From: a virus
DNA length: 34,684 nt
Virus record (IMG/VR): IMGVR_UViG_3300008107_000931
Location: 1-34,684 of that record
Reading direction: 5' to 3' (one strand)
Shown: in pieces, positions 2 through 21,683 of the stretch
How positions within the stretch are numbered: the first letter of the stretch is position 1
Layout of the letters: every line of letters begins with the position of its first letter
Program-made: the position numbers and the translations under genes
Notes under the pieces: model-generated
What the model was told of the DNA's origin: nothing
Database searches by the model: none
Seen by the model: the letters and a program-made list of their open reading frames with translations, nothing else

Positions 2-3000
2 ATCCGCCAAAAGTATCCTCAATACAAAGAACTGAGTGATAGGGAATTAGCGGATGCGCTGCATGACAAGTTCTACCCCGACATGGAGTTGGGGGACTTT
101 TACGAACGTGTAGGGCTTGCCAAAAAAGGCATAGGCGCTGCGGTAGGCAAAGGGATTGAATCCCTGATTTCGTCTGGCCGCACAGCTATCGGTGCGTTAA
201 CTGGTTCTGCTGAAGAAGCCGCCACTGCCGGCTTAGAACGCGGCAAAGACATTGGCACACGCTATGCTGACCAAGTTAGCCTTGACAAAGTAAAAAAAGC
301 CTACGAAAAAGATGGCGTTCTGTCTGCCGCTGGCGAAGCCATTAGCCAAGTCCCTGCGGCTCTTGCTGAACAAGCCCCTAACCTTGCCGCCACATTTGGT
401 AGTGCTCGTGCAGGCGCAGCGCTTGGTTCCGTTGCTGGCCCTGCCGGTACAGTAGTTGGCGGTCTTGCAGGCGCAGCATTACCATCTTTAATTCAGCAGT
501 TTGGCGGCAACATTGAGCGTCAAGCAAGTGAGCAAAAAGGTCGGGGCGAAGCTCTTAAGATTGATACCGGAGCCGCCGGCGCTGCTGCCGTTCCTCAAGC
601 CGCCTTGGATGTGGCGGGTACGTTTATTCCCTTGGGTGGCCGTCTTGTCAGCAAACTGACCGGCATTCCAGAGAAAGCGTTTTTTGGTAAATCTGCCGCG
701 CAAGTTACCAAACTTGCAGATGAAAAACTACTAGCTACCCTTGCCAAAGGCACGGCCACTGGCGCTCTTGCTGAGATTCCAACTGAAATTGCCCAACAGA
801 TGATGGAGCGTGCGCAGGCAGGGTTATCCCTAACTGATGCCAGCGCATTGAAAGAATACGGCGAGACTGCCTACCAAGTTGGTTTGCTTGCACCTATTGG
901 TGCGGCGGGACGTTTGTCTAGTCGTGCTGGTGCGCGTGGTGAAGTGCTTGCTACAAAGCAAGAAGAAGCACGCACACAACGGGAAGAAGAAGCTAAGACA
1001 GCGCAAGAAGAAGCTGACAAGTTGGAAGCGCGTAAACAAACGCCCGAGTACTTGCAAGAGATACAACAAAAGTACTCAGACTATCAAAAACAATTTGATG
1101 ATCTAAACGCTAAAGCCAAAGTTAAAACTGATCCCAACGACTTTGCAGGCATTGAAGCCAAGCGTGAGGCGCGTAAGCAACTGGCTGAGTTGAAACAATC
1201 AGAAGAGTTTAAAAATCTAGTAACGGAATACAGGGCGGCACTGCCACGCATAGCGGCCATGGAGCAACAAAAAGTTGCTGACGAACAGCAACGTGTTGCA
1301 GGCATTGAGCAAGAAGCCGCCGCACTGCCACAAGATACTCAAGCGCAAGAATATTTTCAATCTTCGCAAGGCACGCTCCCCGGCTTTGAGCCAGTTGAGA
1401 CAACCACCAAGATGCCAGAGGTGGACAAAGACGCGCAGTACGCCGATCTTAAAAACCAATACTACAACCTGACCCGTGCGCTTGAAGACCAACAGCAAAA
1501 GGAATCTGATGCCGCCGCTAAAGGTGACATTGCTGAACTTGAAAAGTTGCTTGGCCAACGCTCGGGCATGGAGACAGCGCGTAAACAAGCGGTTGATGAA
1601 TTGGCGCTTGTCGGTGTTCCTATTGACCGCATGGCGGAAGCCAAGGCTATTAGCGAGAGACTAAGCAAAGCCAAAGATCAACTCAAAGCCATGGCTGGCC
1701 CCGGCTTTGATCCTGCCAAAGCACGCAAGCTGGTGGACAAGATCAAGACGTACGAAGAAGAAATGGCGCAGTACCCCGGAGTCCAACAAGACTTTGGGCT
1801 AAAGGCTACCAAAGAACAGCGCGTAGATACGCCTGAAGAGTTCCGCATAGGCAAGCAACGCTTGCAGGCTGATCGCATGGCTCCGTTGTTTGCCGGCCAA
1901 GAGCGTGGTGCTGCGGCGCAGTCTTTCATGGACGCTATCAAATCTTCGGATGAGTACAAGCGTCAAGCTAAAGTAAACCCAGAGATTGCCGCCCTGCTTC
2001 GCATGGCTGAGCCTAAAGACACATCTGCGGCTACCGGCACTGAAATTAAACGCATGGAAATGCAGGGCATGGAGCCTGCTCGCACAGATCAGTACTCCTT
2101 GTTCGATGAAGCCCCAGAAGTTCGTAGCGACATCCAGTCTGGCACAGGCGCACTAGCAACGAAATCCCGTTCAGCACTGATGGCTGAGTTGCAGATTGCT
2201 ACTGCCGCTGGTAACCGCCAAGCCAAAGCTGACGCTATTGCCGCACTGCAAGACTTAAAAGCCAAAGAAATTGCCGCCAAAGAGAAAGCTGCCGCACCTA
2301 CTGCAAGCGGTGTAAGTGGTGAGTTTGATACCGCCCCCGTTGCTGGAGCCCTTGCCGGTACTAAGATGCCTGCAGATGTAGCGCGTAAACAAGCCGTTGC
2401 CGATGCCCGTGAACTGTCCTACGCCAAGATGGTGACGCTTGTTAGCCAGTTTAATAAAGGCAGAGTTAAGCAAGACGAACTGGATACTGCGCGTAAACAA
2501 GTACTTGACAATCTTGTTGCTGACATTGAGCTTAACCGCGGCTCGTCTATGCCTGCCGCTGAACGCCTTGATATTGAGCGTGAAGCCAATATCCAGTTGC
2601 GTGACTTAATTACCCGCTTTGGCGACACGCGTGAGTTGACGGAAGTCAAGGGCGAGAAAGGCCAGACAAGCCTGATCCCTTCACAAACGCAGACAGGCGA
2701 GTTCCGTACCGAAGGCGGGCAAGGCCCAACAGTTGAAGGCCGCACAGAAGGCCGTAGGACATTTGGTAGCCCGTATGCTGCCGCCATGACCATCAAAGAA
2801 GGTCTGGATCAGATTCGCAACAAAGCAATCTCTGGAGAAAAAGGCACGGCTATCGAGCGCACATATACGCCCGAAGAAGCCTCTGTTGAAGCCTTACAAA
2901 AGGACATGGACAAAGCGTTTGCCGCGCCCAACCTGCCTGCTGAAGTCCTCACACTACTTAACCGTGTGGCTGACAACTTTGATGTGGTCAAGACCAACCC

Positions 3001-6000
3001 ATCAGAGGGAACGGAAACAGCCCTGCCGCCCAGCGCCCGTGGCACAGTCCCAACAAAACTGGTGGACGACATCTCCTCATGGCTGCACCGCGCCATGGTC
3101 ACAGGTAATAGTGATCCGGCAATGTCTGCGCGTGTTACTGAGCGCCTTGACCAGCTTGAGAAAGCTAAGATTTCTGAGACACAGCCAACAACGCGTGGCA
3201 CAGAGACTGCCATCCAAGGCGAGTTAGACTTAGAAGGCAATAAACTCAAAGGTCGTATTTTTGAGTCTGCTCAAGCATTTGAAAACTATCTAGGCAGCGA
3301 AGCATTGCAAGGTTTGCGCTCATCCATGGGCATCGTTACCCAGACTGTTGCACGCCTGACACGCCAATTAGCTCCGCTAAAAGCACAAGCAGAGGGCTTG
3401 GCCAAGCAACTTAAAGCCGCCCAAGATCAGTACGATAAAGCCGTAGCCGTCAGGGGTGCCGATGTTGGCGCAGCCAACCAGATTTTGGAAGCTACTAAGC
3501 GCCGCTTGAGCCGTGTTGAGAAAGTCTTGGATGGCCAGTTGCGTCAGTTCCAGATTGATTATCTCAAAGCAAGCACTGCGTTTGAGTTCTCTGCACAGAC
3601 ATCTGAAGACATCGCTGACGCGGTTGAAGCCAACACAAAAACATTCAGCCAGCCTGAGTACGATGCACGTAAAGAATACGTGACGGCTAAACGTGACTTG
3701 CGTATACAAATGCGCAAGCGGTTGCCTGCTAAAGCCCATCCAAAGCTGGAGATGGATTCGTTCAGTAAAGGTTTGAGCGACTACTCTGAGCGCCGCAAAG
3801 AATACATCCGCCCTGCGGAAGAGCGTCTAGCCAAAGCAACAACTGCGTATCGTGCGCAGGTGGCGCGTAACCAACGCCAGTCACACATCGTAGCGTTCTT
3901 GGACAGGGACTTGTCTTTGCAGATGCAGCTTCAAAACGAAGCGGCTTTGATGGACGGCTTGGCCACTAACCTAGTTAACACCAAGATGGCCTTGGACGAA
4001 GCGTTTGAAACGCAAGATCGTAGCCGTATTGAGAAGGCACAGAAAGACATTGCCACAGCAGAGCAACTTAAAACAGAAGCCGCTGCTGAAAACGATACCA
4101 AGATCAAAGCGCTTACCGGCCAGATTGCTGACTTGTCAGACAGCTTGCGTAATATACAGCGCCAGATTCGCGGTGAAGAAGGTGCAGTAGCCGAGCAGCA
4201 GAATGTGCGTCTGGCCACTAAGGAAGAGACACAAGCTGACCGCGAAGCCCGTGATGCAGCAGTTCGCAAGAAAACGCAAGCACAGCGTGAGAGCTTGGAA
4301 CTGATCCCCGGTGAAAAGATTTCTTTTGAGAAGCGCCGTCAACTCATTGAGTTCTTGGACGCATCGCCTGCAAATCTGGACGAACAAGACGCCATCATTA
4401 AAGATGAAGACTCTACAGCCAAGCAAAAGGCCGAGGCTCACTCAGAGATTACGCGCATCAACACGCGCATGGAAGAGCTTACCAAGCTGTTCTCCAACGA
4501 GCCAGAGATTGCACAAGCCGCTACTGCGGCCATCGACAAGCGCATCACCAAGCTACAGAAAACCATTGACGCTGTAACTGCACGAAGCCAAGAGAAGGGC
4601 ATTGAGAAGAAGCTATACGACTCGCGTATTAAAGAGTTGAACAAATACAAGCAGGAGATGAAGAAGCTTCAAGCCAAGCGTTCAGCTAGGCGAGGTGTTG
4701 AGCGTACGCCTGTTGGCCCTAATATTTACGAAGAACCCATGGCGGTTCAAGGTCAGGCACGTACAGTTGTTGCCGCCCCTGCTCCTGAGTTGGAGCCCGT
4801 AGAACCCGGCGTTCGTCTTGCTCCTCGTAGGATTGGCCCCGTGGTCAAGGCAAACGTTACCGCTGGTAATGTGCGTACAGGTGACTTGACGACTGTAGAT
4901 GAGCGCACACTTCCGCCTAACAGTCGCGTTAAGCAGTCTGGCACGACACGTCCTATGACTGGTTTGCAAGCTCAAAGACAGGCCAACAAAGACACTGCGC
5001 TCAAACGTGCAATGGATCGACTAACGTACTTGGAAGACCTGCAAACAAGAAACGATGACGCTCTTGCTGTGGCACAAGAAGCTGGGGACAAAGACCGTAT
5101 TGCTAAACTGACAAGCAACACGACACGTATCAATGACAACATTGAGTTGGCAAACAACGAACTTGCCAAAGTAAACAAAGGCGTTGCCCGTATTGCTGAA
5201 ATCTATCGCCCAGACACACTAAGCCAAGCAGCCGCTACAGCTTCGCAAGGCCCTGCGCTCAGAGACAAGGTGGACACGGAGCAGAGTGCTGCTGCCATCA
5301 TGCAGAACATCTCTAAGACATCGACCAACCCAATCAATAAAGCGGTGGCTGAGCGTCTGAAGATGTTGTTAGGCAACACTCGCGTTTACTTGGAAAACAA
5401 TCTAACTGACAACAACGGCAATGCTGTGTACGGCCAAGCCGCTGCTGACGGCTCGTTTATTGTTTTGGACAAAGAGTTTGGTTTAAATGAAGTGACCGCG
5501 TTGCACGAAGGTGTACACGCCGCTGTTGAGCGCGTCATGCGTATGCCTGAGAGCGAGCTATCTGCTGACCAGTTAGCCGCTAAACGTGAACTTCAAGCTT
5601 TGTTTGAAGCCGCCCAGAAGGACGGTAAGTTTACTAACGAGAACGCTTTGACAGACCTGAGTGAGTTTGTCTCTGAGGCTTTGTCTGACGACATTGTTAA
5701 CATTTCTAACAAGATTGTTGCCCGTCAGAAAACTTGGAGCGAAAGCATCAAGGTCAACGCCACAGGCTTGGCCATGGAGACCCAGTTGGTCGACCGCTTT
5801 GCAGGATTTGAGCGCCTGTCTAAGACGATGGATAAGCTCAAGGGCATCCAGATGATGTACTACTTGCGCATGTATGACCAGCGCATGAACTTTGTGGCGC
5901 AGTCTGCCGCTAATGGTGCGTTGCAAGTGGTTGAGAAAACCCGTGCCGATGGCCAGAAAGAGTACATCATTGAGAGCAAAGCAGGCGCCAGCTTGCGCGG

Positions 6001-8209
6001 TGTAGCCGAGATTCTCAAAGGCGCCGCAAGTGAAATGGGCAGCGTCGACAACGCCAGCCGTACGTTTACTACTTACATGGCGGCTCTGCGTGCTAAGCGT
6101 GTTGGCTTAGACAAACTGAACTTTAGCGGTACTGTGACGCAAGCGGAACTAGATCGTGTACTGGCAACAGTTGAAGGCAATAAGACCATCAAGGATGTCT
6201 TTGAGCGTGCCCGTGAAGAGTACAACACGTACAACAAAGGGCTTATTAACTTTGCTGTGGCCACTGGCGCTATGCGTAAAGCCGATGCTGAAATGTTGCT
6301 CAAGAGCAATGACTACATCCCGTTCTATCGTGAGCGCAACGGTGTTGTCGAACTGATGATTGGCGGAGAAAACCCCGTCCGTATTGGTAACATTAAAGAG
6401 CAGCCGTATTTAAAAGACTTGGTTGGCGGTGATGCTCCCATCATGGACTTCATGGTTAGCTCGGTGCAAAACACCAACATGTTGGTGGACATGGGCTTGC
6501 GTAACTTAGCCACAAAGAACGCTGTGTTTGAGTTAAAGAACATGGACATGGCCAAGATCACGGACAAGATGACTTCCGGCAACGACGTCGTTAAGTTTAA
6601 AGTTGACGGTGAAGACCGCTACGCCATGATTGATACCGATGCTGCCGGCGTTCCTGCTGACATCTTGGTCAAGGGCATGGAAGGTATCCCAACACAGATG
6701 CCGTTTATGCTGCGTGTTTTAGCGGCTCCAGCCACGTTGTTGCGCAAGGCTGTGACAGCAACGCCTTTGTATGCGGCTCGTCAGTTGTTCCGTGACTCCT
6801 TGGCGGCTCCCTTACTGTCTGGCGCTGACTTCTTCCCCGTTACTGGAGCGCTTAAAGAAATTGGAAGCGCAACCAAGAGCACGCTTGAGAGCCGAGGCAT
6901 TACAGGTGGTCAGGTGTTTACTGGCGGCGCGGCAGATATTACCGACATCATGCGCCGCATTGCGTCTGGTAAGGGTAATTTTGCAGACCTCATGTCTAGG
7001 GCAGAAAACTTCTCCATGGAGGCCGATGCGTTGTCTCGCCGTGCGCAGTACAACAGCTACATCAAGCAAGGCTTGTCCGAGATGGAAGCCACATACATGG
7101 CGCTTGAGTCAATGAACTTTACCAAGCGCGGTGCTTCTCCTAGCATCCACATGGCCAACTCGTTGATCCCGTTCTTCAACGCACAGATTCAAGGTCTGAA
7201 CGTGCTGTACAAAGCTATGTTTGGCAAGATGCCTTTCAATGAGCGCTTGAAGATTCAAGAGAAGCTGTTGACTCGGGGCTTGATGATTGCCGCTGGTACG
7301 ATGGCGTACGCCGCCATGATGCAAGACGACGAGGCTTACAAAAACGCTACGCCAGATCAGAAGTACGGCAATTGGTTTGTACGCATCCCCGGTGTGTCTG
7401 AGCCTATCAAGCTCCCTATCCCGTTTGAGATTGGTTACATCTTCAAGGCATTGCCAGAGGCGCTGTACAACTCAATGGTCAACGAGCATGGCGGTGAGGA
7501 AGCCGTTAAAGCGTTCCGTCAAATCCTGATAAACACCATCCCCGGTGGTTCTTCCTACGGCATACCGCAAGGTATGAAGCCGTTGATCGAGGCAGGGCTT
7601 GGCCAGTCGTTTTACACAGGACGCGGCATCATGTCACCTCACGAAGAAAGGCTGTTGCCTGAAGCACAGTTCCGTGAGAACACTTCACAGGTTGCTAAGA
7701 CTGTCGGCGCTGCTGCGGGTGTCTCGCCTATCGTCCTTGAGCAGTTGGTGCAGGGTTACACAGGCACGCTAGGGATAGCCCTCTTGCAAGCGGTCAGCAT
7801 GCCTTTTGGCAAGTCAGACTCGCCAGAGAAAGCGTTTAAGCGTTTGTCGGAAATGCCATTGGTGGGCGGTGCGTTCCAGCCAAACGATGCTGGCGGCATC
7901 ATCAACCGCGCATACGACAGGATGCAGGAGTTCTCCAAAGTTAAAGCCACCGTGGACGATTTGCTTGAAAGAGGAGAGAAGTCCAAGGCGATGGAACTCA
8001 TTGACTCTAAAGCCAAGCAGTACGAGGCAGGTGAGATTGCTCACGACTTCACAACTACGATGGCCGAGATGTCACAGTACGAGAGAGCCATCCGCGCTTC
8101 TAACTTGGACGGCGAACAGAAACGTGAGCGCTTGGATGACATCCGCAAGATCAAGATCAGGTACGCGGAGACGATGCGCGGGGCAGTCGATAAAATAATA
8201 CCCCCGTAA
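2..8209 (+). CDS. Giant virion-associated polyvalent protein with zincin motif (5' truncated)
   Basis: The frame is open to the left edge, so the N-terminus lies outside the window; the first in-window ATG is at 83, but the upstream codons encode IRQKYPQYKELSDRELADAL, a motif I associate with phage polyvalent and internal virion proteins. Visible parts in order (numbered from the ATG at 83): an Ala/Gly-rich, membrane-like stretch (about 80-200); a very long charged, coiled-coil-rich middle (about 280-1650); a zincin motif HEGVH at about 1808 followed by a Glu-rich helix LSEFVSEAL, as in HEXXH metallopeptidases; and a C-terminal region (about 2230-2600) with FFNAQIQGLNVLYKAMFG and hydrophobic segments that resembles the LPD38-type domain of phage polyvalent proteins. 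Such proteins are usually packaged in the capsid and injected with DNA. Role in ejection or host takeover is inferred; the family assignment is from memory. It ends just before a strong terminator. Confidence 0.85.
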   Translation: MRQKYPQYKELSDRELADALHDKFYPDMELGDFYERVGLAKKGIGAAVGKGIESLISSGRTAIGALTGSAEEAATAGLERGKDIGTRYADQVSLDKVKKAYEKDGVLSAAGEAISQVPAALAEQAPNLAATFGSARAGAALGSVAGPAGTVVGGLAGAALPSLIQQFGGNIERQASEQKGRGEALKIDTGAAGAAAVPQAALDVAGTFIPLGGRLVSKLTGIPEKAFFGKSAAQVTKLADEKLLATLAKGTATGALAEIPTEIAQQMMERAQAGLSLTDASALKEYGETAYQVGLLAPIGAAGRLSSRAGARGEVLATKQEEARTQREEEAKTAQEEADKLEARKQTPEYLQEIQQKYSDYQKQFDDLNAKAKVKTDPNDFAGIEAKREARKQLAELKQSEEFKNLVTEYRAALPRIAAMEQQKVADEQQRVAGIEQEAAALPQDTQAQEYFQSSQGTLPGFEPVETTTKMPEVDKDAQYADLKNQYYNLTRALEDQQQKESDAAAKGDIAELEKLLGQRSGMETARKQAVDELALVGVPIDRMAEAKAISERLSKAKDQLKAMAGPGFDPAKARKLVDKIKTYEEEMAQYPGVQQDFGLKATKEQRVDTPEEFRIGKQRLQADRMAPLFAGQERGAAAQSFMDAIKSSDEYKRQAKVNPEIAALLRMAEPKDTSAATGTEIKRMEMQGMEPARTDQYSLFDEAPEVRSDIQSGTGALATKSRSALMAELQIATAAGNRQAKADAIAALQDLKAKEIAAKEKAAAPTASGVSGEFDTAPVAGALAGTKMPADVARKQAVADARELSYAKMVTLVSQFNKGRVKQDELDTARKQVLDNLVADIELNRGSSMPAAERLDIEREANIQLRDLITRFGDTRELTEVKGEKGQTSLIPSQTQTGEFRTEGGQGPTVEGRTEGRRTFGSPYAAAMTIKEGLDQIRNKAISGEKGTAIERTYTPEEASVEALQKDMDKAFAAPNLPAEVLTLLNRVADNFDVVKTNPSEGTETALPPSARGTVPTKLVDDISSWLHRAMVTGNSDPAMSARVTERLDQLEKAKISETQPTTRGTETAIQGELDLEGNKLKGRIFESAQAFENYLGSEALQGLRSSMGIVTQTVARLTRQLAPLKAQAEGLAKQLKAAQDQYDKAVAVRGADVGAANQILEATKRRLSRVEKVLDGQLRQFQIDYLKASTAFEFSAQTSEDIADAVEANTKTFSQPEYDARKEYVTAKRDLRIQMRKRLPAKAHPKLEMDSFSKGLSDYSERRKEYIRPAEERLAKATTAYRAQVARNQRQSHIVAFLDRDLSLQMQLQNEAALMDGLATNLVNTKMALDEAFETQDRSRIEKAQKDIATAEQLKTEAAAENDTKIKALTGQIADLSDSLRNIQRQIRGEEGAVAEQQNVRLATKEETQADREARDAAVRKKTQAQRESLELIPGEKISFEKRRQLIEFLDASPANLDEQDAIIKDEDSTAKQKAEAHSEITRINTRMEELTKLFSNEPEIAQAATAAIDKRITKLQKTIDAVTARSQEKGIEKKLYDSRIKELNKYKQEMKKLQAKRSARRGVERTPVGPNIYEEPMAVQGQARTVVAAPAPELEPVEPGVRLAPRRIGPVVKANVTAGNVRTGDLTTVDERTLPPNSRVKQSGTTRPMTGLQAQRQANKDTALKRAMDRLTYLEDLQTRNDDALAVAQEAGDKDRIAKLTSNTTRINDNIELANNELAKVNKGVARIAEIYRPDTLSQAAATASQGPALRDKVDTEQSAAAIMQNISKTSTNPINKAVAERLKMLLGNTRVYLENNLTDNNGNAVYGQAAADGSFIVLDKEFGLNEVTALHEGVHAAVERVMRMPESELSADQLAAKRELQALFEAAQKDGKFTNENALTDLSEFVSEALSDDIVNISNKIVARQKTWSESIKVNATGLAMETQLVDRFAGFERLSKTMDKLKGIQMMYYLRMYDQRMNFVAQSAANGALQVVEKTRADGQKEYIIESKAGASLRGVAEILKGAASEMGSVDNASRTFTTYMAALRAKRVGLDKLNFSGTVTQAELDRVLATVEGNKTIKDVFERAREEYNTYNKGLINFAVATGAMRKADAEMLLKSNDYIPFYRERNGVVELMIGGENPVRIGNIKEQPYLKDLVGGDAPIMDFMVSSVQNTNMLVDMGLRNLATKNAVFELKNMDMAKITDKMTSGNDVVKFKVDGEDRYAMIDTDAAGVPADILVKGMEGIPTQMPFMLRVLAAPATLLRKAVTATPLYAARQLFRDSLAAPLLSGADFFPVTGALKEIGSATKSTLESRGITGGQVFTGGAADITDIMRRIASGKGNFADLMSRAENFSMEADALSRRAQYNSYIKQGLSEMEATYMALESMNFTKRGASPSIHMANSLIPFFNAQIQGLNVLYKAMFGKMPFNERLKIQEKLLTRGLMIAAGTMAYAAMMQDDEAYKNATPDQKYGNWFVRIPGVSEPIKLPIPFEIGYIFKALPEALYNSMVNEHGGEEAVKAFRQILINTIPGGSSYGIPQGMKPLIEAGLGQSFYTGRGIMSPHEERLLPEAQFRENTSQVAKTVGAAAGVSPIVLEQLVQGYTGTLGIALLQAVSMPFGKSDSPEKAFKRLSEMPLVGGAFQPNDAGGIINRAYDRMQEFSKVKATVDDLLERGEKSKAMELIDSKAKQYEAGEIAHDFTTTMAEMSQYERAIRASNLDGEQKRERLDDIRKIKIRYAETMRGAVDKIIPP

Positions 8210-11818: not shown

Positions 11819-12802
11819 TTACTCATCGTCCCAATCAGCAACGATGTCGGCCAGCTTGTTCTTCTTAGCTGGTACGGATTCAACCTTGGCCGCGGCTTTG
11901 CGCACTTCGGGTTCTTCTTCAGCCTCGACCTCAACGGCCTTGGCTTTCTTGGGCTTGGCGGCTTTGACTTCAGCCATAGCTTCTGCTTCGTCTTCGTCGA
12001 GCATCGCACCCATGGGGCGCTTGCCTTCGATAGCCAAGGGTGCAGGGGCTACAACGCCATCAGCAGAGGCAGGGGTAACAGCCACGGCCTTCTCAGCGTC
12101 CTTGGATTTGGACTGCTCAACAGCAGACTCGTACTCGGCATCAGTCAACCAACGCATTGGGCTGAAGAACAACTTGGGAGACTCGGCCTTGGTGTCAAAC
12201 TTCATGCGCGTCACGATGGCGTCCAAGTTAACGGGAGGAGTCTGAGCCGCCATGTAGCGGGCGTATGCCTGCAATGGGCGCTTGTCGCCGTCTTCCTTGC
12301 CAAAGATGGACGTAGCTGGCAGGGTGACCTGCAAGACATCACCATCAGGGTTGTTAGCCAGCACCACAGCCAAGCGCTGTTGGTAGCGGCAGGCACGGCT
12401 TTGACCATTGCCAGACCCAGCGATGTTTTGTGGGCATGTTGTACAGCTTGACGACTGCTTGTTCTTCACGCCTGCATCGGGCTTCTCACCATCAGCAGAT
12501 GTGCAGTCAGGGGCGGCTGCAGCCGCGTCTTTGTCGTAGCCACCAGCGTAGAAGATACGGCTGACCTTGGGTGCCGCTTTCACGATGATGACATCCAAGT
12601 GGCGGTCTTCAATCGATGCGATCTCCTTGCCGCTTGCAAGCAGGCGGAACACACCACCCTTGATGGAGACGCGCTTCATGCCGCTACCGGCATTCACGTT
12701 ACCGGCCAAGGCTAGAGTAGTTGCTGAGAGTTCTGCGTTCTTAGCGAAAGCAGGAACGTTTGAGGGATTGAACATTGCAATATTGCTCATTTTGTTTTCC
12801 AT
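11819..12802 (-). CDS. Putative single-stranded DNA-binding protein
   Basis: A 327-residue protein with a globular N-terminal part of about 220 residues including a Cys cluster (SSSCTTCPQN and the nearby GQSRACRYQQR) and a long low-complexity Ala/Lys/Glu linker ending in the acidic tip ADIVADWDDE. Acidic C-terminal tips are typical of SSB and T7 gp2.5-like proteins, which use them to bind other replication proteins. Its place between the helicase and primase-helicase genes fits. The SSB role is inferred from this architecture and context; no OB-fold signature can be proven by eye. It abuts the preceding gene's stop; a start four codons later (12790) is also possible, with GGAAA upstream. Confidence 0.6.
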   Translation of the reverse strand: MENKMSNIAMFNPSNVPAFAKNAELSATTLALAGNVNAGSGMKRVSIKGGVFRLLASGKEIASIEDRHLDVIIVKAAPKVSRIFYAGGYDKDAAAAAPDCTSADGEKPDAGVKNKQSSSCTTCPQNIAGSGNGQSRACRYQQRLAVVLANNPDGDVLQVTLPATSIFGKEDGDKRPLQAYARYMAAQTPPVNLDAIVTRMKFDTKAESPKLFFSPMRWLTDAEYESAVEQSKSKDAEKAVAVTPASADGVVAPAPLAIEGKRPMGAMLDEDEAEAMAEVKAAKPKKAKAVEVEAEEEPEVRKAAAKVESVPAKKNKLADIVADWDDE

Positions 12803-13204
12803 TTAAGTTGGTTTGCGTACAGAGATGTCATACTCAGATGCTGAGTTGAGTCCGGGCGGTACGACCCCGGGGTTTTCTTCTAAGAACTGCGCCATGTTGA
12901 GTTGCGCAATGCGCTTCTCAAGCAGGTCAATGGCCTCGTGCTCGATCATAAATTTCTTGAACGAGTCCCAGTCTTGTGTGGTATAGCGAGTTTTCACAGA
13001 CATGACTGCCGTGCCCTCGGTGGTGCGAACAGATGTGACGCCCATGGCCTTCATCTGCTCTTTGATCGCGTTCTTGATCTCGTCCTGTTGGCCTTTAAGT
13101 ACTTCCGCTTGGGTGTCGTACGCTTGGGTCAGTTCGGTCATACGCGTGCGTAGCTTGCGGTATATTTTCACAAGCCTATCTAACGGTATCGCTTCTTCTT
13201 CCAT
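12803..13204 (-). CDS. Conserved phage protein with coiled coil
   Basis: A 133-residue protein. Residues about 10-55 are heptad-rich and probably a coiled coil; the C-terminal half has the pattern SVRTTEGTAVMSVKTRYTT, then DWDSFKKFM, then EENPGVVPPGLN, which I recall from unassigned small proteins in other phage replication modules. No catalytic motif is visible. AGGAG precedes the ATG. Placed directly between the SNF2-type helicase and the putative SSB, it may be an accessory factor of recombination or replication. Confidence 0.75.
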   Translation of the reverse strand: MEEEAIPLDRLVKIYRKLRTRMTELTQAYDTQAEVLKGQQDEIKNAIKEQMKAMGVTSVRTTEGTAVMSVKTRYTTQDWDSFKKFMIEHEAIDLLEKRIAQLNMAQFLEENPGVVPPGLNSASEYDISVRKPT

Positions 13205-13274: not shown

Positions 13275-14834
13275 TCAAGATTTAATTTCGGTTTCGAACA
13301 TGTCGGTCAGTAGTAAGTTATCGCTTACTTTTCCTTCCAACGCTTTAAACATCTTCTTCTCAATCGGGCTACCCTGAATGTGAATCACGGTAACTTTGTC
13401 TGAGTCTTGCCCCTTGCGGTCAGCACGCGCACAGCACTGGATGTACTGCTCAACGCTCATCAACGGGCCATAGAACACCACAGTGTCAGCGGCAGTCAGC
13501 GTGATGCCGTGGGCAGAAGCCGCAGGCTGCATGACCAACACCCGAGGGTTCGGCTCGTTCTGAAAGCGGCTGATAGTTTGCCCGCGTTTGCTTGGTGTGA
13601 TGTCTCCGTGAATGCACTCATTGACAATGCCCTTCTTGGTGAGGTAGTTGTGTATGGTGTCGATGGTGCTTCGGAACAACGCGAAGATGATGACCTTGCG
13701 ATCTGTCTCGTCCAGTATCTCCTCAAGCACAGCAAGGCGAGGCGCTGAGTCAAACTCCACCACTTCCTTGTCGTCTGTGTAGGCCGCGCCACAACTGATC
13801 TGCAAGAGCTTACTCACACCAGCGGCGGCATTGACTGCCGTGATGGTCTCGCCTGCGGCCTGCACTAGCATGCGGTCTTTGAGCATGGTGTAGTACTTGG
13901 CTTGTTGAGGAGTGAGCGCGATCTCACGCGTCATGGTAATCACTGGCGGCAAGTCAAGGCACTGCGCTTTGGTGTAGCGTATCGCTGGCTGTAGAGCCTC
14001 GTGTACTTTCTCCTTGGCATCGAGCTTGGGCGCCCACTTAAACGTGGTGATCTTGTTCATCACTTGATCTCGCCACGCTGTGTAGAACTTGGGCACGCCC
14101 TCGGGGTTGACTAATTTTGCCAAGCCGTACGCATCCACAGGCGACTGCGATGCAGGCGTACCAGTCATCATCCACAGGTAAGTGTTGGGAGTCAGGATCG
14201 AGTTGAGTGATTTCCATCTGCGGGTAGTAGGCGTCTTGTATGCGTTGGCTTCATCCACAATCACAAGGTCAAAGCGGCCATCGTTCTTTACCTCATCAGC
14301 GATCAAGTTAAGACCTTCGTAATTCGTGATTACAATTTCGTAATCTCGCTGGATCATCTCGATGCGGCGACTAGCCTGCGCATGGTGCGCGATAACGGCA
14401 GAGCGATGAATGACACTGTTATTGATGTCGCCCATCCATGCGCTGTGCATGATCGACAGGGGGCACAGGATGAGAATCCTACGCACCTTCTTGAGCTTCA
14501 TCAGGTAGTCAGCCGCCCACAACGCGGACAGCGTCTTGCCAGTGCCGGGCTCAGAGAACACGAAGGCTCTCCTGTACAGCGTGAGGAACGCTGCCGTCTC
14601 GATCTGGTGAGCCATGGGCTTGTAACGCCCCGGCCAGTCATAGCGCCTAGTGATAGGCGAGGGTACATCTTTGACACCTAGGTTACGCAACACCCGCGCT
14701 TCGTCAAGACCCCAGTAAACAGCAACATCGTAGCCTCCGTCTGCACGGGGCGTTGTCATGCTCTTTGGGATGATTGAGTACTTGTGCGGGTTCCTTGTGC
14801 GTAAGATAAGTGCTTTGTCTTCTACGATTTCCAT
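13275..14834 (-). CDS. SNF2/DEAD-like superfamily 2 helicase
   Basis: A 519-residue two-domain ATPase. Domain 1: Walker A SEPGTGKT (94-101), motif Ia-like ILILCPLSIMHSAW, motif II DEAN (194-197) and motif III TGTPASQSP (224-232). Domain 2: a fold with IFALFRST and motif VI QCCARADRKGQ (466-476), the arginine-finger motif of SNF2-type proteins. The length is short for SNF2 but usual for phage versions. It would remodel or unwind DNA during phage replication or recombination. GGAG precedes the ATG by a good distance. Family assignment is firm; the exact substrate is not known. Confidence 0.93.
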   Translation of the reverse strand: MEIVEDKALILRTRNPHKYSIIPKSMTTPRADGGYDVAVYWGLDEARVLRNLGVKDVPSPITRRYDWPGRYKPMAHQIETAAFLTLYRRAFVFSEPGTGKTLSALWAADYLMKLKKVRRILILCPLSIMHSAWMGDINNSVIHRSAVIAHHAQASRRIEMIQRDYEIVITNYEGLNLIADEVKNDGRFDLVIVDEANAYKTPTTRRWKSLNSILTPNTYLWMMTGTPASQSPVDAYGLAKLVNPEGVPKFYTAWRDQVMNKITTFKWAPKLDAKEKVHEALQPAIRYTKAQCLDLPPVITMTREIALTPQQAKYYTMLKDRMLVQAAGETITAVNAAAGVSKLLQISCGAAYTDDKEVVEFDSAPRLAVLEEILDETDRKVIIFALFRSTIDTIHNYLTKKGIVNECIHGDITPSKRGQTISRFQNEPNPRVLVMQPAASAHGITLTAADTVVFYGPLMSVEQYIQCCARADRKGQDSDKVTVIHIQGSPIEKKMFKALEGKVSDNLLLTDMFETEIKS

Positions 14835-19583: not shown

Positions 19584-19771
19584 GTTTTCATGTCCCTCAC
19601 ATACGTGGCAAAGCTGTGTGCTGTGTCACCAAAGGCAATGCGCATGGCATCGAACTCAAGCGCCACTTCCTCAAGCACGGCGTTGCGTATCATCGGGTCT
19701 GGTTTGATTTGCACTTTGGGCGTGCCAAAGATGTTGTCAAAATCTTCTTTGTTAAATAGTGTGTCACTCAT
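19580..19771 (-). CDS. Small acidic hypothetical protein
   Basis: A 63-residue acidic, predicted helical protein (IRNAVLEEVALEFDAMRIAF). No recognised domain. Start and stop both overlap neighbours by 4 bases (ATGA), so it belongs to the coupled block that begins at 20226. Function unknown. Confidence 0.65.
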   Translation of the reverse strand: MSDTLFNKEDFDNIFGTPKVQIKPDPMIRNAVLEEVALEFDAMRIAFGDTAHSFATYVRDMKT

Positions 19772-20226
19772 ATGCGCGCCTCTGCTTCCTCTTTAAATTG
19801 GCGGTGTTTAAGTTCTGTGTCAAGTTGCACAATCAGCTTGGCAAGGTCTATATCAATCAGGTGCAGCTTCTTCGTCCAGCGGGCGATGGTCAACTGGATG
19901 TCGTGCATGAACTCTTCCTTCATGTCTTCGTTGCCAAGCACGTTGGCCGTCATGCGGTAGCCGCCGCCAGACTCTCGATCAGAGGGCAAGCTGATAAATG
20001 CACGGACATGGGTAGGGGTGCTGTCCAGCACTGTGATCTTGCATCTCTGAATCAATGACCGCGCCTGTTCCCTTCGGAACTGCTTGGCCGCCTCGGTGTC
20101 GTCCCATTCAAAGTGACGATGCAGAATGTTGTCTTCATCCTGCGCCGCCTGTAAGACGTCATCAATCATCAGCACGCCGTTGTTGCGGCGTGCCATCTGT
20201 TCTAAATACTTGCGTTCTTCATTCAT
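19768..20226 (-). CDS. Conserved phage hypothetical protein
   Basis: A 152-residue protein. I set the start at 20226 because AAGGAGAAAA lies immediately upstream; the frame stays open further, but that part is the pentamer-repeat tract and is not coding-like. The sequence NNGVLMIDDVLQAAQDE followed by HFEWDDTEAAKQFRREQ recalls a family of unassigned phage proteins with a WDD-centred motif. The second half is strand-rich, then a charged helix. It is the first gene after the repeat tract in the direction of transcription, so that tract would be part of its 5' leader if transcription reads through. Function unknown. Confidence 0.75.
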   Translation of the reverse strand: MNEERKYLEQMARRNNGVLMIDDVLQAAQDEDNILHRHFEWDDTEAAKQFRREQARSLIQRCKITVLDSTPTHVRAFISLPSDRESGGGYRMTANVLGNEDMKEEFMHDIQLTIARWTKKLHLIDIDLAKLIVQLDTELKHRQFKEEAEARI

Positions 20227-20255
20227 AGTTTTCTCCTTGTTAAAAAATAAAGGGG

Positions 20256-21005
20256 TGCCTGCTATTCCGTGCCTTGCTCCGCCACACCCCGCCCAACCCG
20301 AACACGCCCCGCCACTCCCCACGGTGCCTGCCAAGCCCTACCACACCATGCCTAAACGAGCCATACTGTTTGCCGTGCCTGCCGTACCTTGCAGTACCAC
20401 ACCACGCCTGACCGCGCCTCGCCTCGCCTGCCTTGCTGTGCCCATCCGCGCCATACCCTTCCAGACCATGCCTCGCCTGCCGTGCTGTGCCAAACCTGTC
20501 CATGCCTTACCATGCCTAGCCTTGCCATGCCTGCCTTGCCAAACCGGGCCCGACCGCTCCTAGCCAATCCCGGCCACGCCTGCCATGCGAAACCACACCT
20601 TATCAAGCCGAGCCTGACCGCGCCGATCCGCGCCTATCCATGCCTGCCTTGCCGAGCCAAACCGGTCGCTACCAAGCCCCGCCATAACGAGCCGTGCCTG
20701 CCTTGCCATGCCTCACTCGTCCTAGCCAGTCCTCGCCCCGCCAGTCCTCGCCTGCCTTGCCATGCCAAACCGAGCCGTGCCTTGCCATGCCTTACCGCGC
20801 CTTGACGAACCAAGCCTGCCATGCTATTCCTCTCCAAGCCACACCGCGCCAGACCCTTCCGCGCCGAGCCCCGCCAGTCCTGCCTTGCGAAACCACACCG
20901 CGCCAGACCCTTCCGCTTCGAGCCGCGCCAGTCCTGCCGTGCCCAGCCACACCATACCGCGCCAAGCCAAGCCGTAACGAACCGCTACGCACCTAGCCTG
21001 CCTCG
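20256..21005. repeat. Pentamer-phased CCNNN degenerate repeat tract (non-coding)
   Basis: About 750 bases in which the plus strand has CC roughly every 5 bases, usually as GCCNN or CCNNN, for some 150 units, with occasional 4-base steps at CCTGCC that shift the phase. From 20583 to 20639, for example, nearly every fifth position starts CC or a one-base variant. The minus strand is correspondingly GG-periodic. A 54-base tandem duplication is embedded near 20841 and 20895 (ACACCGCGCCAGACCCTTCC in both). Nearly all six frames stay open because of the base composition, giving low-complexity Pro/Cys/Ala/His or Gly/Arg/Ala peptides; I take none as genes. It lies between two minus-strand genes. Function unknown; see findings. 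Confidence 0.9.
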
Positions 21006-21014
21006 GTGTTCAGC

Positions 21015-21683
21015 TTACTGGATACTGAACTTGGCTTTGACAGCAACCTCTCGATTGCTCTCCACTACTTGGAACAGACCGAACCCACATCCAGCGCTAG
21101 CCTTACTGTCGGGTCTGCCTGCACCAATCCCTACTTGTAAGCCGCAACGACTCACAAGGTTAATTACATCCACCATCTTAAACTGATCCATGTCGAACCT
21201 GACACGCAGTTTGGCCGCCCACTCACGATACATTGGACGCGAGCGTACATCGACCACGCCTGTTGCATTTCTAGTGTGCGCTGTGTACACATCGCTCTTG
21301 CCATAGATACGCACAAGCGGTATGCCGTCTTGCTTGTCCCAACCATCCGCTTCCACGAACGTCGAGAGCTTTGCAAGCGTCATCTTGAACCCAACCAGAC
21401 GGCACGCTGAGATCATGGCCGCACGGAATGCGGCGGCGTTAACACCCTCCCAGTTCTCCATACTGCGGTAGCGTGCGTCTTCTGCCTCTCTGTCATAGTC
21501 GCGGGCTTCACGTACCTTCTTGCTCTTGGACGATGGGCCCTCCTGCATCTTGGCCATGAGTTCGGCCTTCTTGCTAAAGCGCTCCACCACCAGCGGTGCA
21601 ATGCCCTCCAGTATCAAGTCCACAGTAGCAAACTTGGGTGGGGAAATTACGTATGTTGTTTCGATTTGATTTTTGGTAGCCAT
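21015..21683 (-). CDS. Conserved phage protein, possible RAMP/Cas7-like fold
   Basis: A 222-residue protein. After an N-terminal strand region (ATVDLILEGIAPLVVERFS) comes a charged loop, then FRAAMISACRLVGFKMTLAK, and a C-terminal part with INLVSRCGLQVGIGAGRP (174-191) and GCGFGLFQVV (198-207). I recall a widespread phage family with the same order, ending in a GLxVGxGxxRP...GxGxF pattern. The Gly-rich end resembles the G-loop of RAMP/Cas7-like proteins; that fold guess is tentative. AAGGAGAAAA precedes the ATG. Its stop lies about 10 bases from the pentamer-repeat tract. No function is established. Confidence 0.8.
   Translation of the reverse strand: MATKNQIETTYVISPPKFATVDLILEGIAPLVVERFSKKAELMAKMQEGPSSKSKKVREARDYDREAEDARYRSMENWEGVNAAAFRAAMISACRLVGFKMTLAKLSTFVEADGWDKQDGIPLVRIYGKSDVYTAHTRNATGVVDVRSRPMYREWAAKLRVRFDMDQFKMVDVINLVSRCGLQVGIGAGRPDSKASAGCGFGLFQVVESNREVAVKAKFSIQ

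Follow-up and report, generated by a model that had tools for sequence, protein, structure and literature searches.

VIPR (Viral Interference Programmable Repeat) is a phage-borne system, related to CRISPR, that was described in a preprint of April 2026 (PMC13142463; bioRxiv 2026.04.26.720920). As outlined there, the locus contains a RAMP-like Vipr protein with an RRM core, a small accessory gene and a guide RNA, the vrRNA, which is built of tandem YNNGG (GGY/NN) repeats, 9-16 per guide, and reads DNA as NN-skip-NN, the skipped base usually being the codon wobble (PMC13142463). The code and the silencing were demonstrated for the VIPR of SUSP1, which belongs to another clade than the one considered here and whose vrRNAs are directed against a satellite (PMC13142463). 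The preprint divides VIPR into seven types with the accessory genes vap1-6; in type II (the SUSP1/P. fulva kind), an invariant structured 3' tail follows each guide, and 'staggered arrays with overlapping vrRNAs' are mentioned with supplementary figure S18 (PMC13142463). The main text of the preprint does not mention integrases as targets (PMC13142463).

Here we compare this system with a locus in a viral DNA of 34,684 nucleotides (IMG/VR record IMGVR_UViG_3300008107_000931), the whole of which is referred to as the window. The locus very probably contains a VIPR vrRNA array with several guides aimed at tyrosine integrases, which probably serves to silence rival mobile elements. The initial annotation of the window was aware of no comparable phage element that had been described, a statement now overtaken by the preprint (PMC13142463); the tract is not an unknown element. 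The system itself is already described, and what is new is the target class and the dynamics of the cassettes.

The GGYNN array and its flanking genes

The tract spans positions 20255-21002 of the window and is read on the minus strand from 21002 down to 20255, where the unit parser counted 152 GGYNN units. The tract is thus real and lies essentially where the initial annotation had placed it (750 bases at 20256-21005, with CC about every 5 bases in roughly 150 units), and its description as non-coding and strand-oriented agrees with a GGYNN array on the strand of the flanking genes. Among the 132 steps between CC runs, 98 are 5 bases long, 17 are 10 and 13 are 4, and the CC autocorrelation amounts to 100, 99 and 89 at lags 5, 10 and 15. 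The anticipated 5-base peak is therefore strong, with 100 at lag 5 compared to 31.7 ± 5.2 in shuffled sequence (500 dinucleotide-preserving shuffles, about 31 ± 5). The gradual rise of the autocorrelation at lags 9, 14, 19 and 24 is the pattern given by phase slips, in keeping with the 4-base steps that had been proposed to reset the phase.

The GG rhythm suggested for the minus strand is present, but the unit goes beyond bare GG to GGYNN. Over all loci, unit position 3 is C in 59%, T in 26% and A in 14%, and positions 4-5 are nearly free in their base frequencies; position frequencies and the substitution spectrum both show GGY as conserved and NN as hypervariable between guides. TRF detects little of the tract because the NN bases differ from unit to unit. 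A CRISPR array was considered and rejected, as TRF and the unit parser revealed no near-identical repeats of about 20-50 bases with unique spacers, and the earlier view that the tract is neither a satellite nor a CRISPR array is upheld. The Rfam search of the tract gave no match, the plasmid collection contained no tract of a similar kind and the promoter scan showed no promoter excess; the terminator scan marked seven weak terminator-like sites. An assembly artefact is unlikely as the origin of the tract because two records from other samples (L010 and L034) have an identical array and other viruses have arrays that differ from it but follow this design.

On the minus strand, the tract is preceded by vipr (21015-21683, 222 aa, RAMP/Cas7-like, phrog_4652 family) and followed by a vap-like accessory gene (19768-20226, 152 aa, helical), which was assigned to phrog_15946 and is supported by its conservation. 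The profile of the vipr product matches PDB 36pp, 'SUSP1 Vipr protein', at E = 2.6e-22, and the leading Foldseek matches of its AlphaFold model (pLDDT 78) are all Cas7/Csm3-type subunits (E=2.5e-5, probability 1.00). Judged by profile and predicted model, the gene is a Vipr homolog, a Cas7-type RAMP, which bears out the link that had been drawn between the tract and a RAMP-like neighbour. In its predicted fold, the protein resembles the backbone subunits of Class 1 CRISPR-Cas (Cas7/Csm3). Cas7 forms an oligomer on its guide RNA with periodic non-pairing. In contrast to the Cas7/Csm3 systems, the register here is 5 bases rather than 6, the NN code is noncontiguous and there are no identical repeats. 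The model of the vap-like protein (pLDDT 78) found no fold match in the PDB. Elsewhere in the window, a 2708-aa ORF on the plus strand (83-8209) is partly similar to phrog_9854, of unknown function, and weakly similar to a virion structural family.

The search of related phages for CCNNN-periodic tracts, proposed in the initial annotation, was positive: a tract is present in 80 of the 80 IMG/VR loci related by the Vipr protein, and blastn retrieved similar tracts in Mycobacterium phages (Cheoctovirus), Gordonia phages, cyanophage Cy-LDV1 and Pseudomonas LESphi2. A homolog of the vap-like gene (phrog_15946), a feature of the minimal VIPR locus, accompanies the tract in 79 of the 80 related viral loci and in 86 of 88 loci overall. 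In every phage found by blastn, phrog_4652 adjoins the tract, and so does phrog_15946 except in LESphi2. The gene order is vipr-tract-vap, tract-vipr-vap or vipr-vap-tract; the position of the tract relative to vipr thus varies between phages while its strand is constant.

Several of these phages show further particulars. LESphi2 has a different accessory gene (phrog_5926), and its tract (L007, 3998-4316) consists of three short GGYNN stretches with hairpin-like sequence between them, resembling guides with tails in the SUSP1 layout. In Cy-LDV1, additional GGYNN-like tracts seem to be present at 13834-13979 on the plus strand and 12757-13040 on the minus strand (L006). Published gene calls cross the tracts in three loci (L002 3265-4197, L004 3979-4302 and L009 3961-4230); gene 52 of Philus has ~124 extra N-terminal residues ahead of the phrog_4652 domain, and gene 40 of UmaThurman and gene 43 of Pipp lie inside the guide tract. 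The published ORFs across guide tracts in these three phages are probably spurious.

Cassettes and guides of the array

Nearly all 4-base steps read GGCA (549 of 632 segments over the loci). On the sequence evidence, these steps, in which GGCA is followed directly by GG, are guide boundaries, because complete cassettes turn up elsewhere in the arrays of relatives. The segment length peaks at 9 units over all loci, where 7-12 units per cassette are typical, and the cassettes in the window have ~9-13 units. The array contains about 12-13 guide cassettes with only 4-base GGCA units in between. The tract therefore shows the sequence-level features of a VIPR guide RNA, namely GGY/NN units, the cassette size and the one-base wobble skip, and the locus shares with VIPR the Vipr RAMP protein, the small accessory gene and the location in a phage. 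Unlike in SUSP1, however, the guides run head to tail with 4-base GGCA steps and are tail-less: the structured 3' tail of the SUSP1 type was not found after the guides, and the invariant tail that marks type II was absent from the window and from related arrays. This layout may correspond to the staggered, overlapping arrays of the preprint.

Even where the Vipr proteins are 100% identical, the arrays of the viruses differ, although they are assembled from common cassettes; for example, the cassette GT-CG-TT-TA-GC-CG-CC-TT is common to the window and four other loci (L015, L016, L018 and L019). When cassette homology was judged on the first four units and substitutions were tallied in the remaining ones, Y differed in 34% of the units of homologous cassettes, NN in 10-12% and G in 11%. 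Drift within a cassette lineage is thus confined to the Y position, and NN is about as conserved there as GG, contrary to the earlier statement that the intervening bases vary freely. Since NN is constant within a lineage and different between lineages, it is the guide sequence, as expected.

In the window, the guides are numbered along the minus strand from g1 (20935-20998). They continue with g2 and g3, which are near-duplicates (20817-20934), g4 (20753-20816), g5 (20699-20752), g6 (20645-20698), g7 (20581-20644) and g8 (20532-20580), the cassette given above; g9-g13 occupy 20260-20531, where g11 and g12 merge within an irregular stretch (20329-20428).

Integrase motifs as predicted targets

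Guides were searched by the one-base-skip code of VIPR (NN-skip-NN). Four of the 11 regular guides in the window (g1, g6, g7 and g8) match tyrosine integrases at conserved motifs, in all four cases antisense and with the skipped base at the codon wobble. For g8, at least 120 viral stretches matched exactly; among the 120 matches listed, 102 are antisense in the longest frame with the skip at the wobble, and nearly all of these fall on the motif NGRAYNRT of P4-family integrases. Four other guides of the window, searched with 16 bases, gave 11-20 matches each, mostly scattered. No exact g8 match occurred in 100 Burkholderiaceae genomes, so the targets of g8 lie in other hosts.

The 18-base core of g7 (AT-TA-GC-TC-GC-CA-TC-TT-AA-GT-TT) was found in 27 genome contigs, about 22 of them in integrases. 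Ten contigs, including Limnohabitans, Polynucleobacter and other freshwater Burkholderiales, match at 22 of 22 bases and a viral locus (L225) at 21 of 22; the site encodes [KN]TFK[DE]CAEAY[IM] in the central domain of PF22022 integrases. The guide g1 (TA-GC-GC-TC-AC-TT-TT-GC-AT-GT-TG) matches this integrase group around the presumed catalytic tyrosine, with 22 of 22 bases in L244 (PF00589/PF22022) and 21 of 22 in L228, L235 and L242. Its motif is HT[IM]ANKVEAAY, which presumably includes the catalytic Tyr of the family. For g6 (AC-TC-AT-GG-TT-AG-CC-TT-TC), which is antisense to EKGLNPMEV, 18 of 18 bases match in the integrases of L212 and L224, and a further exact match (L299) is located beside a tRNA gene. 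Pfam found Phage_integrase domains in nine of nine examples tested, with PF00589 in the tested examples for g8.

Scans with g2 and g3 yielded no convincing target family: nine units of g2 had 0 exact matches and eight units had 13 scattered ones, six of which are in one phage protein that has 1 mismatch over 9 units. The 11 viral matches of g5 are scattered without a common gene; its match to a conserved Burkholderiaceae host gene family, with 1 mismatch, was taken as chance and serves as a negative control.

The code was also examined over the whole clade with 344 guides and a control set of 140 integrase ORFs at a match threshold of 88% or better, where a one-base skip gave 45 matching guides, skips of 0 and 2 gave none and a skip of 3 gave one. 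Guides of the window had served to recruit the ORFs, and related guides were therefore removed, leaving 308; against this still small and biased set, 30 of the 308 independent guides matched with skip 1, whereas none did so with skip 0 or 2 and a single one with skip 3. With the same 308 guides, reversing the unit order left 0 matches and shuffling left 0-1. The sites of the independent guides are spread along the integrase (for example, HGFRSTFRDW and AYAYP), and at least one integrase guide is present in 60 of 81 loci. Eight loci of actinophages, cyanophages and Pseudomonas phages contained no guide matching this integrase set.

When all guides were compared with the collected viral loci alone, the only targets were Sak4 genes. 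Three guide families of relatives (from L023-L027, L041/L044/L046 and L067/L072) match the Sak4-like recombinase gene of related viruses in the sense orientation, two at 16 of 16 bases and one at 15 of 16, with all three sites in the wobble phase; the sites are in genes for a Sak4-like ssDNA-annealing protein (L085 6711-7472; L087 2328 and 2427).

The orientation of the matches bears on whether the guide RNAs would act on DNA or, as antisense RNAs, on the integrase mRNA. Complementarity to the coding strand is seen for 29 of the 30 independent integrase guides, with the wobble skipped, and for g1, g6, g7 and g8, as expected for mRNA. The VIPR of SUSP1, however, binds dsDNA and represses from either strand (PMC13142463), and the sense Sak4-like guides of the relatives cannot pair with mRNA, which argues against mRNA targeting as a general rule. 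We thus regard a VIPR array that acts on integrase mRNA as unlikely.

Proposed role and remaining alternatives

For transcription, guide processing, binding, silencing and the benefit to the phage, we infer the following course under the preferred reading, a vrRNA array acting on DNA. The array shares its strand with vipr and the accessory gene, and co-transcription of all three is probable; the array RNA would be cleaved, or else read, at the GGCA steps to give guides of about 8-12 GGYNN units. Cas7-like Vipr protomers, one per pentamer, would grip GGY and expose NN, and the exposed NNs would pair with the target DNA as dinucleotides separated by one skipped base. Each guide would thereby cover codon positions 1-2 of a short conserved peptide motif and disregard the wobble base. 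Several guides would be aimed at tyrosine integrase motifs of prophages, satellites and other integrative elements. Binding would probably silence the integrase and leave the rival unable to excise or integrate while the phage, probably lytic, replicates.

In 22 of 23 carrier records, which are possibly incomplete, no tyrosine integrase of the virus itself was found, and the self-target scan of the window found no site; these viruses therefore look lytic and appear to aim at temperate or integrative competitors. As with the SUSP1 vrRNAs against a satellite, the guides would be directed at competing mobile elements, but the best-supported targets are integrase protein motifs across many taxa instead of one satellite genome. 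We consider it reasonably likely, with less assurance than for the array itself, that a clade of apparently lytic viruses uses compact tail-less arrays, exchanged cassettes and family-wide anti-integrase guides as a broad-spectrum weapon against prophages and satellites. If this is true, wobble skipping would let each guide address a conserved protein motif and silence integrases across many species.

The initial annotation had listed possible roles at the DNA or RNA level that fit these data poorly. A partition, packaging or replication site, in which GG/CC at each half turn binds a protein filament, would account for the 5-base periodicity and for the oligomer-forming protein family next door; it is nevertheless highly improbable, since the cassettes shuffle as discrete modules with NN kept within lineages, the NN strings decode to integrase motifs, and the position relative to vipr changes between phages when the strand does not. 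The suggested protein coating came close, as a Cas7-like protein is expected on the RNA, but the partition site is not supported. A pentamer repeat of selfish or mutational origin, or an RNA sponge that forms G-quadruplexes, has in its favour a repetitive, GG-rich sequence with a weak overall fold excess (z = -1.6), and we give it hardly any credence because the tract is tied to vipr in all 80 loci and the unit order holds target information (30 matches against 0-1 when scrambled or reversed).

The vrRNA array thus provides an independent confirmation, through its own sequences and targets, of a system known from one preprint, and natural targets can now be given for this clade: tyrosine integrase motifs and, in relatives, Sak4-like recombinases. 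By leaving out the wobble base, the code can be directed at a protein family rather than a single DNA sequence, which makes the idea of 'inter-phage warfare' directly testable with known laboratory prophages and satellites. Cassette exchange further prompts one to ask by what route new guides are gained. In the irregular stretch near the 3' end of the array lies a short guide (AT-TC-TA-AT-GT-AG), of insufficient length for a target search, that is also found in about 20 loci; it takes a similar place in many loci and may have a special role.
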